51,555 nt of DNA from Acidobacteriaceae bacterium. GTDB taxonomy: Bacteria > Acidobacteriota > Terriglobia > Terriglobales > Acidobacteriaceae. This document shows, in pieces, positions 36,466 through 49,649 of this stretch. The notes under the pieces are model-generated. The model was not told the DNA's origin and made no database searches. It was given only the letters and a program-made list of their open reading frames with translations. Position 1 is the first letter of the stretch. Each line of letters opens with the position of its first letter. Both the position numbers and the translations under genes were made by a program. The DNA lies in assembly GCA_003132405.1 (NCBI GenBank), contig PKXQ01000067.1, positions 1 through 51,555 of the forward strand, written 5' to 3'.

Positions 36466-36666
36466 GAGCCCGTTTGTCTCTAATTGAAGGTCCCGCAACA
36501 AACTCGCGCCCCAAACTTGGCATCTGACCTCCTTTCGAGAATGCGGGAATCTATACTAGAGGGCGAAAAACTGGCCGACCGTCGGGATCGCTAATCGGTA
36601 GTGGAGCTCGATCGCAAACGACAACCGACCAACGACCATCGACCAACGACCAAAGACGAACAACCC

Positions 36667-37752
36667 ATGTCCGCTCCCACCATCGTCGACGTGCAAGGCC
36701 GTAAGCTTAAGCTCACCAATCTCGACAAAATCCTCTATCCCGCGACCGGTTTTACCAAAGGTGAGGTAGTCGATTATTACGTCCGCATCGCCCCCGTCCT
36801 GCTGCCGCATCTTATCGGCCGTCCTCTAACCATGAAGCGCTATCCCGGAGGCGTAGGCGAAGATCAAGAATATTTCTTCGAAAAAAACGCGCCCAAGTTT
36901 CGCCCCGACTGGGTGAAGACTGCGCCCGTCTGGAGCGAAGGAAATAACCGCACCGTCAATTACATTCTCGCCAACGATCTACCCACGCTGGTCTGGATTG
37001 CCAACCTGGCCTCGATCGAACTCCACCCTTCTCTCTCATTGGCCGCCGATCTAGAGACGCCGACCATGATTGTTTTTGATCTCGACCCCGGCCCTCCCGC
37101 CAACATCGTGCAATGCGCCCAGGTCGGCCTCTGGGTGCGCGAGATCTTCAACCACTTCGGCCTGCAAAGTTTTCCAAAAACCTCTGGGTCGAAAGGAATG
37201 CAGATTTATATTCCCCTGCATACCAGAACCAGTTACGACCAGACCAAAGCGTTTGCCAATGCCATTGCCCGCCTGCTCGGGCAAGAGCATCCCGAGCTCG
37301 TCGTCTCCGACATGAAAAAGGCTGTGCGCACCAATAAAGTTTTCGTCGACTGGAGCCAGAACGATCGCCACAAAACAACCATCTCCGTATATTCCCTGCG
37401 AGCGCGCGAGCATCCCACCGTGTCGACGCCCGTTACCTGGGACGAGGTCGAGCAGGCGCTGAAGAAGAAAGATGCGCAGCGGTTGGTTTTCGAAGCCAAA
37501 GACGTCTTGGCGCGCGTCGAAAAAATGGGCGACTTGTTCGAGCCGGTACTGAAGTTAAAACAGAAGCTGCCGCAGTTAGCCGGCCTCGCCGCGGCATCAG
37601 AAACAGTCGACAAATCGGAGGACGAAACGGTGGGAGCCAGCAGCTCGTCAGAAGCGCCTCGGCCCAATAAGCCAACAAAGAAGAAAACAATAAAGAAAAA
37701 GACGGCAACGGCGAAGGCGAAGCCGTCCGCGGCCAAGCGCCGCAAGTTATAA
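36667..37752 (+). CDS. ligD: LigD-type polymerase/primase domain protein (stand-alone)
   Basis: A 361-aa archaeo-eukaryotic primase-type polymerase, as found at the PolDom of bacterial LigD in non-homologous end joining. It contains LTNLDKILYPATGFTKGEVV, GRPLTMKRYPGGV, IELHPSLSLAAD and MIVFDLDPGPP, with the two catalytic Asp of DLD. SGSKGMQIYIPL, VFVDWSQNDRHKTTI and VYSLRAREHPTVSTPVTWDE follow. A Lys/Ala-rich tail (after about residue 325) is probably a nucleic-acid-binding extension. No ligase or nuclease domain is fused and no Ku is nearby. ATG at 36667 is preferred; the open frame from 36601 runs through a CGACCAACGACC-type repeat. Confidence 0.92.
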   Translation: MSAPTIVDVQGRKLKLTNLDKILYPATGFTKGEVVDYYVRIAPVLLPHLIGRPLTMKRYPGGVGEDQEYFFEKNAPKFRPDWVKTAPVWSEGNNRTVNYILANDLPTLVWIANLASIELHPSLSLAADLETPTMIVFDLDPGPPANIVQCAQVGLWVREIFNHFGLQSFPKTSGSKGMQIYIPLHTRTSYDQTKAFANAIARLLGQEHPELVVSDMKKAVRTNKVFVDWSQNDRHKTTISVYSLRAREHPTVSTPVTWDEVEQALKKKDAQRLVFEAKDVLARVEKMGDLFEPVLKLKQKLPQLAGLAAASETVDKSEDETVGASSSSEAPRPNKPTKKKTIKKKTATAKAKPSAAKRRKL

Positions 37753-37763
37753 TCCCGCCTGTT

Positions 37764-38480
37764 ATGGCAACTCTCTACGTCGGAACTTCGGGATGGGCTT
37801 ATCCAACCTGGAAGCCCGCTTTCTATCCCGAAAAGCTGGCGCAGAAAAAATTTCTCAATTTCTACGCTTCCAAACTCAACGCCGTCGAGGTCAACTACAC
37901 CTTCCGCCAGTTAGTTAAAGAAACGACCGTCCGAAACTGGATCGCCGACACGCCCGACCATTTTCGCTTCACCATCAAAGCCCACCAGGTGCTCACCCAC
38001 ATCAAGCGCCTCAAGAACTCAGACGAATTTCTCCAGCGCTTTCTCGGCACGCTGGAAAATTTAGAGCGCGCCAAACGCCTCGGCCCGCTGCTCTTTCAAC
38101 TGCCGCCGAATTTCAAAGCCGATCAGGCTGTCCTCTCCGACTTTCTAAAAACCCTGCCTCGAACCGTGCGCGTGGCCTTCGAGTTCCGCAACGAGTCATG
38201 GCTCACCGACGCCACCTGGGCAACGCTCTCCGAGCGCAACGTTGCGCTCTGCGTCGCTGAAACCGAAGAGCGCAAGACTCCCGACGTAATCACCGCCGAT
38301 TACGCCTATTATCGTTATCGCAAACCGAGCTATACCGCCGAAGAACGTCAGACGATGATCGCGCGCATTCGCGAACATCTCGCCGCTGGCCGCGATGTTT
38401 TTGCGTACTTCAAGCATGAGGAAACGCCCGAAGGCGCGCTCTATGCCGTCGATCTGTTGGCAGGTGGTCGAGTGGTCTAA
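37764..38480 (+). CDS. DUF72 family protein
   Basis: A 238-aa protein with the DUF72 TIM-barrel pattern: YVGTSGWAYPTWKPAFYPEK, KFLNFYASKLNAVEVNYTFR, FTIKAHQVLTHIKRL, GPLLFQLPPNF, VAFEFRNESWL and a C-terminal DVFAYFKHEE. The family is ubiquitous and uncharacterised; a nuclease-like or sugar-related enzymatic role has been guessed. It begins 11 nt after the LigD-like gene and is likely in the same transcript. In many bacteria DUF72 genes sit near DNA-repair or nucleic-acid genes, so the association with a primase is mildly suggestive only. Confidence 0.92.
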   Translation: MATLYVGTSGWAYPTWKPAFYPEKLAQKKFLNFYASKLNAVEVNYTFRQLVKETTVRNWIADTPDHFRFTIKAHQVLTHIKRLKNSDEFLQRFLGTLENLERAKRLGPLLFQLPPNFKADQAVLSDFLKTLPRTVRVAFEFRNESWLTDATWATLSERNVALCVAETEERKTPDVITADYAYYRYRKPSYTAEERQTMIARIREHLAAGRDVFAYFKHEETPEGALYAVDLLAGGRVV

Positions 38481-41489: not shown

Positions 41490-43655
41490 ATGCACAAGCC
41501 GATTAAATATGTTGAAAAAGCGGTGACGATTGCCGCTACGGGTGCGTGGGCGGTGTTTCAGCGGCTGAACCGGATTGCCCCAAACGACGCGCCGGTGCCG
41601 AAGTGGTCGGACAAGCCGCTGCTCAAGTCGTGGGAGAAGTCGAAGCCGCCGCTGGGTTGGCCGCGCTCGACCGATTCGCTCTGTCCGAAGTGCGTCCCCG
41701 AAATTCGCCAGCAGATTCTCGATGGTCATCTGCCGGTCGACGTGCTGATGAATGAAAAGGTCGGCGAGATCAAGGCGCAGATCGTCGAGCGCGATGGCAA
41801 GATTTGGATGGTCAAGGATTGTGTGAAGCACGGGCACTTTGAAGATTTGATGTCGATCGACACGGAGTTTTCGCAGCATCTGGAAGACGTTTTTCCGGGG
41901 CGCGACATAAAGGCGCATAACGACGAAAAGCTGCATCACCATGGTTCTTCCACCGTGAAGTACGGACGCGGCTCTGTGCTCACCGTCGATCTGACCAACC
42001 GCTGTAACATGATGTGCGATCCCTGCTTCATGGACGCGAACCAGGTGGGCTACGTCCACGAACTAACGTGGGAAGAAATCAAGACCGTGCTCGACAACGC
42101 AATCACCATCAAGCCGCGCCGCCAGATGTCGGTGCAGTTCTCCGGCGGCGAGCCAACCTTGTCGCCGTATTTCCTGGATGCGGTTCGTTACGCCCGCAAA
42201 GTCGGATATAACAGCGTGCAAGCCGCTACCAACGGGATTGAATTCGCCAAAAGTTTTGAATTCTGCCAACAGGCCGTGGAAGCCGGAATGCGTTATGCGT
42301 ATCTCCAGTTCGACGGCATCGGCAACGCCGCCAACGATCATCGCGCCGTGGGCAACTTGTTCGATGTGAAATTGAAAGCGATCGACAACCTCCATCGCGC
42401 GGGCTGCGAAATCGTTCCGGTAGTGACCATCATTAACGGCATCAACAACGAACAAGTCGGACGCATCATTCAATTCGCGCTCGACAATCCCAAAAAGATC
42501 GGCTTCCTCAGCTTCCAGCCAGTTTCATTTACTGGCCGCGACGAAGCCATCACCGACGAGCGCCGTCAGGCGCAGCGCTACACGCTGGCTCACCTCGCGC
42601 ACGACGTCAAAAATCAAACCGGCTTCGGAGTGCCGGCGCGCGACTGGTATCCGATATCGTTTATGAGCACGTTCAGCGATTGGGCGGACGTGATGCACGC
42701 GCAGGATAGCAACAACGATTGGGGCCAGTTGTCGTGCGGCTGCCATCCGAATTGCGGCACGGGCATGGCGCTGATGATCGACAAAGAGACCAAGGAAGCG
42801 GTGCCGGTCACGGCTTTCCTCAAGGGCGATCAGCTGGCCAAGGACATTGCCAAGGTCAACGATGCGGCCCGCTCCAAATTCTGGACGGCGTTCGGCATGG
42901 CGCTGTGTCTGATGAAGAATTACGACTCGTTCCAGTCGCCTACGCATTTCAAGATGACCGACCTGCTCAAGAAGTTCGATAAGAACTTTAATGCTACGGG
43001 AAAGAACTATGGCAAGGTTGGTCCCGACCGCACGATTGAAGACGTGATGAAGCGCCGGCAGGATCGTTGGAATTTTCTCTTCATCGCCGGGATGTGGTTT
43101 CAGGATCTGTTTAACTATGATTTCCGGCGCACCGAGCAGTGCATCATTCCTTACGCCACGCAAGAGGGCGAGATCAGCTTCTGCGCCTACAACACGGGCG
43201 TGGGATGGCGCAATATCATCGAAAAGATGCACATGACTTCGACCCTCACCAAGTGGTACGAAGAGCATGGGCGCCACGAGATTTTCGCCGGCGGCAAGAA
43301 AGTGAAGATGGAAGACGCCGAGCACGCGCTCTATCTGCGCGAAGAGATCGTTACCCACGAAGTGCAGCACGATCTCGACAAGCTCGGAATCGCGAAGACG
43401 GCGCGCGAAGAGAAAAAGCGCGCTCGCGACAGCAAGGCCGAGAGCAACAAGGTTAAGAACGATGCGGCCTATGACGCTCGCATGGCTCAGCTCTATCGCG
43501 AAGTGGTGTTGAAGGAGAAGCCGGCGACTTCGAATGAAGGCGGATTCATTCCGCTCGGCTCGCTCATTCCTCCCGCGCTGATTCAAACGATCGCTCCGGC
43601 CAATGGCGGCGCCAAAAAGACTGTAGACGTTGGCGAGCCTGTGGCGGGTGACTAG
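41490..43655 (+). CDS. Radical SAM protein related to tetraether lipid synthase (Tes/MJ0619)
   Basis: A 721-aa radical SAM protein. N-terminal cysteines C65 and C68 (SLCPKC) and C111 (KDCVKHG) match the rubredoxin-like iron site known in archaeal Tes. The SAM cluster motif is C172-x3-C176-x2-C179 in LTNRCNMMCDPCF, then VQFSGGEPTLSP (218-225 region) and AATNGIEFA. Further cysteines are LSCGCHPNCGTG (416-422), C551 and C565 in IIPYATQEGEISFCAYN, which correspond to auxiliary-cluster regions. Tes joins lipid tails in archaeal GDGT synthesis. Acidobacteria make membrane-spanning iso-diabolic acid and branched GDGTs, so this protein is a candidate lipid-coupling enzyme; that is inference. The C-terminal 130 residues are charged and partly helical. 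A strong terminator follows. Confidence 0.75.
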   Translation: MHKPIKYVEKAVTIAATGAWAVFQRLNRIAPNDAPVPKWSDKPLLKSWEKSKPPLGWPRSTDSLCPKCVPEIRQQILDGHLPVDVLMNEKVGEIKAQIVERDGKIWMVKDCVKHGHFEDLMSIDTEFSQHLEDVFPGRDIKAHNDEKLHHHGSSTVKYGRGSVLTVDLTNRCNMMCDPCFMDANQVGYVHELTWEEIKTVLDNAITIKPRRQMSVQFSGGEPTLSPYFLDAVRYARKVGYNSVQAATNGIEFAKSFEFCQQAVEAGMRYAYLQFDGIGNAANDHRAVGNLFDVKLKAIDNLHRAGCEIVPVVTIINGINNEQVGRIIQFALDNPKKIGFLSFQPVSFTGRDEAITDERRQAQRYTLAHLAHDVKNQTGFGVPARDWYPISFMSTFSDWADVMHAQDSNNDWGQLSCGCHPNCGTGMALMIDKETKEAVPVTAFLKGDQLAKDIAKVNDAARSKFWTAFGMALCLMKNYDSFQSPTHFKMTDLLKKFDKNFNATGKNYGKVGPDRTIEDVMKRRQDRWNFLFIAGMWFQDLFNYDFRRTEQCIIPYATQEGEISFCAYNTGVGWRNIIEKMHMTSTLTKWYEEHGRHEIFAGGKKVKMEDAEHALYLREEIVTHEVQHDLDKLGIAKTAREEKKRARDSKAESNKVKNDAAYDARMAQLYREVVLKEKPATSNEGGFIPLGSLIPPALIQTIAPANGGAKKTVDVGEPVAGD

Positions 43656-43695
43656 AGCAGCTATTAGCTTTTAGCAGTTAGCCCAAGAACCTGGA

Positions 43696-43725
43696 GGCCG
43701 CTCACGATGAGCGGCCTTTTATTTT
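43696..43725 (+). terminator. Rho-independent terminator after the Tes-like gene
   Basis: GGCCGCTCA (43696-43704) pairs with TGAGCGGCC (43708-43716) around CGA, then TTTTATTTT. It lies 40 nt beyond the stop codon. Confidence 0.92.
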
Positions 43726-47984: not shown

Positions 47985-49649
47985 ATGAAAAATGTTTCTA
48001 TGGATACGCATCCCAAGGGAAGTTCTGCGCGCGTGCTGCTGAGTTCGGTGTTTGGGCCGTATGCGCAAGACGACGAATTTGGCAGCCGGGCGATCAATCC
48101 AATGGAGCTCTACCACAACCAGGTCACGCGAGCGCAGGGCAGTTTTTCGCTGCGCATGTTTCATCGCTCCTGGGGAATCATGATGATTCAGCAGAATATT
48201 TCCGCGCCCTGCAGCGTGCTGGATTTTCCTACGCGCGAAAGTTTTGCGCGCGAATTGACTGCGCATAAATACGACATCGTGGGCATCTCATCGATCATCG
48301 TGAATGTCGGCAAGGTGCGGGAAATGTGCCGGATGGTCCGGGAATTGTCGCCGGATTCGACGATCGTAGTGGGCGGACACGTTGCCGCAATTCCCGGCGT
48401 CGAAGAGATGATCGATGCCGATCACATCGTCCGCGGCGAAGGCATCTCCTGGATGCGGCGGTATCTCGGCGAAGATGAGAGCGCCCCGATTCGGCATCCC
48501 AACATTGTCTCAGGCCTCGAGACACGGATCATGGGAATCCGCCTGCCGCAGCGCAAGGGCGGAACCGCCGCGACTATTATTCCTTCGGTGGGCTGCCCCA
48601 TGGGTTGCAACTTCTGCACCACATCAGCCTTTTTTGGCGGCAAGGGGAAGTTTGTCAATTTTTACGAGACTGGCGACGAACTATTTGAGGTGATGTGCAA
48701 GATCGAGGCTGAACTCGAAGTCCATTCTTTTTTTGTCATGGACGAAAACTTTCTTCTGCACCGTACACGCGCCCTGCGCCTACTGGAGCGGATGAAGGAG
48801 GCAGGCAAGAGCTGGGAGCTATCCATCTTTGCTTCAGCCAACGCAATTCGAAAATACACCATGCAGGAACTGGTGGAGCTGGGCGTTTCGTGGGTATGGA
48901 TGGGCCTCGAATCTCCGCGATCGAGTTATAGCAAGCTACAGGGCGAGGACGCCACCCAACTTACGCGCGAGCTGCGCCAACATGGCATAAGAGTGCAGGG
49001 CTCGACCATCATCGGGCTGGAGCATCATACGCCCGAGAATATTGTCGAGGAGATCGAAGCGGCGGTCGCCTATCAGACTGACTTTCATCAGTTCATGCTC
49101 TACACGCCAGTGCCGGGCACTCCGCTCTATAAAGAAATGGCGGAGCAGGGGCGATTGTTGGACGACGTCGACTTTGCCGACGTGCATGGGCAGTATAAAT
49201 TTAATTTCCAGCACAGTGCGATTTCGCGGAACGATTCGAAGCGATTTCTGGATTGGGCGTTCTGGCGCGATTTTGAAAATAATGGCCCCAGTCTCTATCG
49301 CATGTGCCAGACCATGCTGCTGGGCTGGCGGCGCTATAAAGATTATCCCGATCCGCGTGTGCGCGAGCGGTTTGCGCGAGAAGTGAAGAAGCTAAGCAGC
49401 GCCTACAATGCGGCCCTGTGGGTGATGGAGAAGGAGTTCAAGAAAGTAAATCGCGAGGTGAGCGACCGGATTCACAAACTGCGGCGCGAGGTTGAAAAAG
49501 AATTTCCCGTCGCGGCGCGGCTCACGGCGGCGGCGCTGGGGCCTATCTTGTTGTGGTCGACACGACGCGAAGAAAATCGGCTCGCGAAAGGACGCACTTA
49601 TGAGCCTCCGACATTTCTGGAGCGGCGGAATTGGGTCGCGGCGGAGTAG
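47985..49649 (+). CDS. B12-binding-type radical SAM protein
   Basis: A 554-aa radical SAM protein. Residues about 85-160 look like a cobalamin-binding Rossmann domain (HKYDIVGISSIIVNVGKV, IVVGGHVAAIPGVEEMI), but the DxHxxG axial-ligand motif is absent. The SAM cluster C204-x3-C208-x2-C211 is in IPSVGCPMGCNFCTTSAF. FFVMDENFLLH, GVSWVWMGLESP and STIIGLEHHTPENI continue the barrel. A C-terminal region of about 150 residues contains a helical domain rich in Lys/Arg. Enzymes of this class methylate or rearrange unreactive carbons, or couple lipids; the substrate is unknown. The radical SAM gene at 41.5 kb is 4.3 kb upstream on the same strand, separated by two unrelated genes. Confidence 0.85.
   Translation: MKNVSMDTHPKGSSARVLLSSVFGPYAQDDEFGSRAINPMELYHNQVTRAQGSFSLRMFHRSWGIMMIQQNISAPCSVLDFPTRESFARELTAHKYDIVGISSIIVNVGKVREMCRMVRELSPDSTIVVGGHVAAIPGVEEMIDADHIVRGEGISWMRRYLGEDESAPIRHPNIVSGLETRIMGIRLPQRKGGTAATIIPSVGCPMGCNFCTTSAFFGGKGKFVNFYETGDELFEVMCKIEAELEVHSFFVMDENFLLHRTRALRLLERMKEAGKSWELSIFASANAIRKYTMQELVELGVSWVWMGLESPRSSYSKLQGEDATQLTRELRQHGIRVQGSTIIGLEHHTPENIVEEIEAAVAYQTDFHQFMLYTPVPGTPLYKEMAEQGRLLDDVDFADVHGQYKFNFQHSAISRNDSKRFLDWAFWRDFENNGPSLYRMCQTMLLGWRRYKDYPDPRVRERFAREVKKLSSAYNAALWVMEKEFKKVNREVSDRIHKLRREVEKEFPVAARLTAAALGPILLWSTRREENRLAKGRTYEPPTFLERRNWVAAE

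Follow-up and report, generated by a model that had tools for sequence, protein, structure and literature searches.

Which enzyme joins the tails of membrane lipids end to end in Acidobacteria? The question is raised by a gene for a 721-residue radical S-adenosylmethionine (SAM) protein in a 51,555-nucleotide stretch from Acidobacteriaceae bacterium (contig PKXQ01000067.1 of assembly GCA_003132405.1). This stretch, here called the window, is an entire contig of a draft genome of 5.72 Mb in 158 contigs that is 88.8% complete. Iso-diabolic acid is a building block of branched glycerol dialkyl glycerol tetraethers (brGDGTs), climate-proxy lipids that serve to reconstruct past temperature and pH. 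Acidobacteria are the cultured brGDGT producers named in the sources consulted, where the enzymes for brGDGTs or iso-diabolic acid in this phylum stand as unproven. Zeng et al. in 2022 listed 456 bacterial homologues of tetraether synthase (Tes), Acidobacteria included, and proposed brGDGT synthesis (PMC8941075); a 2025 survey describes bacterial Tes activity as unconfirmed (PMC11868695). We propose, with a probability of about 0.7, that the product of the window gene belongs to a radical SAM clade related to but distinct from Tes, and that it is a putative coupler of two iso-branched fatty-acyl phospholipid tails into membrane-spanning iso-diabolic acid. Below, "long form" denotes the clade of this Tes-like protein and "short Tes" the canonical acidobacterial Tes.

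Family, fold and metal sites of the long form

The open reading frame (ORF) is not a chance one, since at least 8000 relatives were found at E ≤ 0.001, the best of them 95% identical over its full length. Pfam identifies PF04055 (radical SAM) and PF23545 (HMPTM N-terminal zinc ribbon), the latter a name that derives from an old pterin annotation. The best NCBIfam model is NF045702 (tetraether lipid synthase Tes; E 3.8e-95, 319.3 bits, 318.7 in the genome search), whose curated equivalog cut-off of 450 bits is missed; the second-best, the TrsS radical SAM (seleno)protein (NF045646, 201.3 bits), likewise has a curated cut-off, 490 bits, that the window protein does not reach. Among solved structures the sole strong match is GDGT-MAS of Methanocaldococcus jannaschii, MJ0619 (E 7.7e-59, 202.7 bits; the next of four matches at 26.3 bits), and the predicted fold is that of GDGT-MAS, matching MJ0619 (PDB ID: 7TOM) over residues 57-597. 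The N-terminal stretch is mildly amphipathic (moment 0.32-0.49 in 18-residue segments starting at residues 1-20), and from the model its helix may contact the membrane, while the C-terminal end of the model is disordered (pLDDT below 50 over residues 679-694 and 696-721).

In a tree of 98 rows (all 69 rows of the ligand counts described below, 24 of the 120 archaeal Tes and 5 of the 80 named loci; SH-aLRT support only), a branch with a support of 100 and a length of 2.67 changes per column separates all 46 long forms from archaeal Tes and short acidobacterial Tes, which group with each other. The tree program warns of long branches; as the tree is unrooted and the branch long, it gives the split only and no dated order. 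Being below the Tes cut-off and in a clade of its own, the window protein is, by its sequence, no ordinary Tes. A sequence-only reading of this DNA had called the protein Tes-like, which holds for the Tes-type fold and the catalytic residues, both kept, and does not hold in the sense of a plain Tes (319 versus 450 bits, separate clade). Three genomes of family f22 (G204, G141 and G307) carry, beside the main type, a second deep-branching long-form paralogue (L049, L051 and L053) with 50-52% identity to the window protein.

The ligand counts cover 41 long forms, the window protein among them, together with 28 short acidobacterial Tes and the fragment of MJ0619, whose ligand numbers follow Lloyd et al. 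(PMC9433317). Before the counts 7 of 76 rows were left out, namely four duplicates, one contig-edge fragment, L025, which carries an in-frame TAA, and L026, which carries none. A second, enlarged count added 120 archaeal Tes, 120 near homologues and 80 named loci; the near-homologue, ligand-count, named-locus and deep-branch sets overlap in kind and are not independent of one another. Invariance was read from two alignments, a larger one of 37 of the 41 long forms, 13 of the 28 short Tes and 6 of the 120 homologues, and a smaller one of 14 of the 41 long forms.

The window protein has cysteines at positions 65, 68, 111, 172, 176, 179, 259, 306, 416, 418, 422, 473, 551 and 565. The sequence-only reading had placed a CxxxCxxC motif at C172/C176/C179, where it is exactly found, and had described a CPxC plus CxxHG pair, present as C65-P-K-C68 and C111-V-K-H114-G, as well as several C-terminal cysteines, borne out by 416, 418, 422, 551 and 565. 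All 41 long forms keep C422, C551, C565 and Met535 (= MJ0619 C338, C455, C470 and Met439); judged from this correspondence the three cysteines likely bind the [Fe4S4]C cluster, the passages of PMC9433317 naming Met439 alone. Y555 (= Tyr459) is invariant across the aligned long forms. In the SAM-side loop, Q343, S346 and R350 are invariant in the 14-row alignment (Q343 and R350 also in the larger one), with numbering via the GDGT-MAS alignment and roles as given for the MJ0619 counterparts in PMC9433317.

The N-terminal cluster differs. The three [Fe4S4]N cysteines (C73/C77/C80 of MJ0619) occur in 0/41 long forms versus 28/28 short Tes and 119/120 archaeal Tes. An alignment-free check of the stretch from the rubredoxin-type CxxH to the radical SAM motif found it free of cysteine in 37 of 41 long forms (the other four have one) and, in further long-form sets, in 119/120 (one unreadable), 78/80 (two unreadable) and 118/120 (two with one); in 118 of 120 archaeal Tes it holds a CxxxCxxC. 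MJ0619 His83, by position the fourth [Fe4S4]N ligand, aligns with the invariant H151 in the enlarged ligand count and with K157 in the first one, where H151 aligns with C77, the alignment of this loop being unsure. C416 is invariant in long forms and found in 0/28 short Tes; further residues invariant in long forms are H149, H596 and W536. Because the three [Fe4S4]N cysteines are absent, the long form is predicted from its sequence to carry two [Fe4S4] clusters and one iron, versus three and one in MJ0619.

Set beside Tes/GDGT-MAS MJ0619 (PDB IDs: 7TOL, 7TOM; NF045702), the long form is alike in fold, in the radical SAM CxxxCxxC, in the rubredoxin-type Cx2C...Cx2H and in its counterparts of Cys338/455/470, Met439 and Tyr459. 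In contrast, it lacks the [Fe4S4]N cysteines, has C416, an N-terminal helix and a C-terminal tail, belongs to a bacterial host and scores 319 rather than 450 bits. The earlier reading had likened the protein to the Tes metal layout and named absent auxiliary-cluster cysteines as a refuting observation. The outcome is split: the rubredoxin-type site and the C-terminal cluster cysteines are there, and the three [Fe4S4]N cysteines are missing clade-wide. According to Lloyd et al., it is not clear what the remaining metallocofactors do (PMC9433317), a question on which the missing cysteines of the long form bear.

Distribution and the ether-lipid marker

We surveyed 396 Acidobacteriota genomes, calling the long form at E ≤ 1.4e-196; long and short types were assigned by E-value bands read by eye, and 26 of the 210 matched genomes, with weaker matches (G136 and G215 perhaps fragments), were scored as lacking the long form. 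On this basis the long form occurs in 184/396 genomes, including 44/44 of the window's family (window genome counted) and 3/3 others of the class, hence 47/47 of the class, and the window genome has a single copy (next-best matches 30 and 25 bits). Short Tes above the NF045702 cut-off occurs in 38/396. By type, 14 genomes have both, 170 the long form only, 24 short Tes only and 188 neither. At least 584 relatives of the long form are found in named genomes, and the best 80 of these all have acidobacterial titles (Acidobacteriaceae, Terriglobales, Bryobacterales), with Acidipila rosea, Acidipila sp. EB88, Acidicapsa dinghuensis, ZG23-2 and KBS 83 as cultured carriers; an acidobacterial host, as the sequence-only reading had it, is supported. 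A search from the deep branch also returned one relative labelled Syntrophomonadaceae, and the homologue list of the window protein holds one labelled Candidatus Eisenbacteria. One long form (G379:C28:32608-34707) carries a single in-frame TAG.

Short acidobacterial Tes (e.g. L035, L036) belongs to the same superfamily and is 32-34% identical to the long form. Unlike the long form it scores above the Tes cut-off, has the ligands for each of the four metal sites (28/28), is patchy (38/396) and tends to co-occur with PF09989, our ether-lipid marker. The ester-to-ether reductase Ger is reported to be homologous to PlsA and to contain two PF01869 domains (PMC13274423). PF09989 was chosen since Thermotoga maritima, the Ger reference, matches it; PF06050 was dropped, having no match in T. 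maritima. PF01869 has one good match in the window genome. All five acidobacterial PF09989 proteins scanned have two PF01869 stretches each. PF09989 is present in 14/14 genomes with both types, 23/170 with the long form only, 14/24 with short Tes only and 38/188 with neither. The difference between both and long-form-only genomes has a Fisher p of 2e-11, the genomes being related to one another, and a within-family permutation over the 11 families (at least two genomes each) containing a short-Tes genome gave 24 genomes with short Tes and PF09989 where 19.7 were expected (p 0.004). In two genomes of one genus (L156 in G203, L157 in G330), short Tes is separated by 248 and 75 bp from a same-strand gene of Ger architecture (two PF01869 plus PF09989); a third ORF follows, called at 475 aa, whose scanned relative (L168, 420 aa) has no Pfam or NCBIfam match.

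Judged from this distribution, the capacity for ether brGDGTs seems to go with short Tes plus Ger, and the long form seems to operate without Ger in most cases. We speculated further, at somewhat under even odds, that Acidobacteria have two Tes-type lipid welders: a patchy short Tes which, with Ger-type ester reduction, would lead to ether brGDGTs, and the long form. The latter would be the first synthase of the Tes type to couple lipids by a C(sp3)-C(sp3) bond using two [Fe4S4] clusters, in effect a natural knockout in which the third is dispensable. Two counts weaken such a split: 38/188 genomes with neither Tes type have PF09989, which is not specific for Ger, and 10 of the 38 short-Tes genomes lack it (28/38 have it). 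Should short Tes plus Ger prove a mark of ether producers, and the long form by itself one of ester producers, brGDGT sources could be recognised in metagenomes. That acidobacterial Tes homologues had been proposed for membrane-spanning lipids was known before (PMC8941075, PMC10087280); the missing [Fe4S4]N cluster and the proposed two-enzyme split are added here. The literature searched (titles, abstracts and passages, with subscription papers and supplements outside it) contained no description of a Tes clade that lacks the N-terminal cluster, nor of a two-type split of acidobacterial Tes.

Proposed iso-diabolic acid synthesis and competing explanations

Given that the long form is conserved, stand-alone, of Tes type and present in 47/47 genomes of its class, it is a natural candidate for iso-diabolic acid synthesis. 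The lipid has a reported share of 20-40% of the fatty acids in 17 cultures from subdivisions 1 and 3, and its presence is reported for subdivisions 1, 3, 4 and 6 among the seven surveyed (PMC13274423). In one Terriglobales clade, five strains contain it at 27-49% of their fatty acids (PMC12935467). By analogy with MJ0619, the C172/C176/C179 cluster would cleave SAM, and the 5'-deoxyadenosyl radical would abstract hydrogen from one iso-C15 tail at its terminal carbon. A sulfide of the C-terminal [Fe4S4] cluster (probably bound by C422/C551/C565 with Met535) may hold the activated carbon while a second SAM activates the other tail, whose attack on the held carbon would form the C-C bond; two 13-methyltetradecanoyl tails joined at C14 would give 13,16-dimethyl-octacosanedioic acid. 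Because the window genome (88.8% complete) yielded no PF09989 gene, we predict a product that is mostly ester-bound rather than a brGDGT ether. We infer from the same analogy that this is the likely substrate, product, cluster occupancy and C-S intermediate of the long form.

Several points weigh against this assignment. The literature searched reports no measured activity for any long form, the window protein is under the NCBI Tes cut-off, and the long form is without the cysteines of one of the four metal sites. The M439A variant of MJ0619 retains activity (PMC9433317), so that retention of Met535 is weak support for coupling. The long-form-to-Tes branch is long (2.67), so a change of substrate is possible, and long-form relatives, found in the search from the deep branch, occur in metagenome-assembled genomes (MAGs) labelled Thermoanaerobaculia. 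Moreover, Mss, the membrane-spanning lipid synthase of Thermotoga and Clostridia, reportedly described by Sahonero-Canavesi in 2022, is said to make membrane-spanning lipids in other bacteria. Finally, a review finds substantial iso-diabolic acid in no more than 3 of the 17 strains that were studied first (PMC11767167), versus high abundance in the 17 according to PMC13274423.

If the long branch, the lost cluster and the invariant extra residues C416, H149, H596 and W536 mark a new reaction, the long form could be a radical enzyme acting on lipid tails with another outcome (ring formation, desaturation, intra-lipid cross-linking or a change of methyl position), and iso-diabolic acid would come from an Mss-type enzyme; Mss homologues are reported in 11/97 Black Sea Acidobacteria MAGs (PMC11868695). 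We consider this unlikely, as the residues tied to the MJ0619 coupling step are retained in the long form and presence in 47/47 genomes of the class is more in keeping with a bulk membrane lipid than with a rare modification. Mss resembles the proposed enzyme in its overall reaction, fatty-acid tail-to-tail coupling, and Mss models are reported to be Tes-like in catalytic architecture (PMC13274423). However, the T. maritima genome has no NF045702 match at E ≤ 1e-30, and its Mss is therefore probably not a close relative of Tes.

A less probable alternative, which we rate as improbable, is that the long form condenses diethers into ether brGDGTs, as Halamka et al. proposed for one or both Tes homologues of S. 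usitatus (PMC10087280); Mss coupling is also held to be blind to ester versus ether lipids (PMC13274423). Against it, the window genome (88.8% complete; Elb-type ether genes not searched) has no PF09989 match, where T. maritima with Ger does match, and PF09989 is found in only 23/170 long-form-only genomes versus 14/14 with both Tes types. A non-lipid role, as a pterin methyltransferase (the old label of MJ0619, also in some database names) or a peptide or cofactor maturase, draws on the PF23545 match and on several relatives titled 7,8-dihydro-6-hydroxymethylpterin dimethyltransferase by their source, and we regard it as very improbable. For the assignment to iso-diabolic acid synthesis, the stand-alone long-form gene throughout the window's class offers a clean knockout target.

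Gene neighbourhood and sequence features

The loci of 40 relatives (flanks up to ~8 kb) and the window were compared all-against-all by ORF, together with 80 named loci (flanks ≤ 4 kb); ORF calling was home-made and missed the target gene in 4/41 sources, recovered by tblastn. No neighbour family was common to more than 7 of the 40 loci plus window, and each window neighbour recurs in at most 3/80 named loci. The claim that the gene is its own unit is therefore supported, and a conserved operon was rejected on the same counts, genes farther than the 4-kb flanks of the named loci being invisible. At its end, where a terminator had been claimed, lies a terminator-like 12-pair stem with a T-rich tail (Table 1); the scanned stretch has 8 terminator-like sites versus 2.7 ± 1.6 in shuffles. 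A promoter scan of the same stretch found no sigma-70-like promoter, and the whole window has no Rfam match at gathering scores. A mobile element was also rejected, since a single-protein scan of viral contigs, which covers close relatives only, found none.

Table 1. Features of the long-form gene and its product in the window (all coordinates are window positions).
Feature	Position	Strand	Basis
Long-form Tes-like radical SAM gene, 721 aa	41490..43655	+	ATG start, ORF confirmed
N-terminal helix, residues 4-29, in ~55-aa extension beyond the MJ0619 match	41499..41576	+	structure model
Rubredoxin-type iron site C65, C68, C111, H114 (= MJ0619 C9, C12, C33, H36)	41682..41831	+	41/41 long forms
Residues 115-171, Tes site of [Fe4S4]N Cys C73/C77/C80; Cys-free, H149 and H151 invariant	41832..42002	+	
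Radical SAM motif C172-x3-C176-x2-C179	42003..42026	+	41/41 long forms; PF04055
SAM-side loop Q343...S346...R350 (= MJ0619 Gln268/Ser271/Arg275)	42516..42539	+	invariant columns
C416-G-C418-H-P-N-C422; C422 (= MJ0619 C338) likely [Fe4S4]C ligand, C416 long-form-specific	42735..42755	+	
Met535 (= MJ0619 Met439, labile [Fe4S4]C ligand)	43092..43094	+	alignment; passages of PMC9433317
C551, Y555, C565 (= MJ0619 C455, Tyr459, C470); two Cys likely [Fe4S4]C ligands	43140..43184	+	
C-terminal extension, residues 597-721	43278..43652	+	alignment and model
Intrinsic-terminator-like stem-loop at gene end	43693..43719	+	12-pair stem, then T-rich tail

Three genomes of the window's family have both types, G073 (L034), G121 (L035) and G265 (L036), and in each of them long form and short Tes lie at most 6 kb apart: in L036 they stand head-to-tail, 245 bp apart, and in L034 and L035 one long opposite-strand ORF lies between them. 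The window also encodes a B12-binding radical SAM protein (47985-49649, + strand; PF02310 and PF04055), whose best NCBIfam matches, BchE at 68 and HpnJ at 63 bits, are far under the cut-offs. A link of the long form to this ORF was rejected, no family partner being found in the 40 loci; among the 80 named loci it occurs near the long form in two close relatives (L074 and L075), the 4-kb flank cutting it off at the window's spacing. Elsewhere in the window, a LigD-type primase-polymerase gene (36601-37752, + strand) is directly followed by a gene for a DUF72 protein (37764-38480, + strand).
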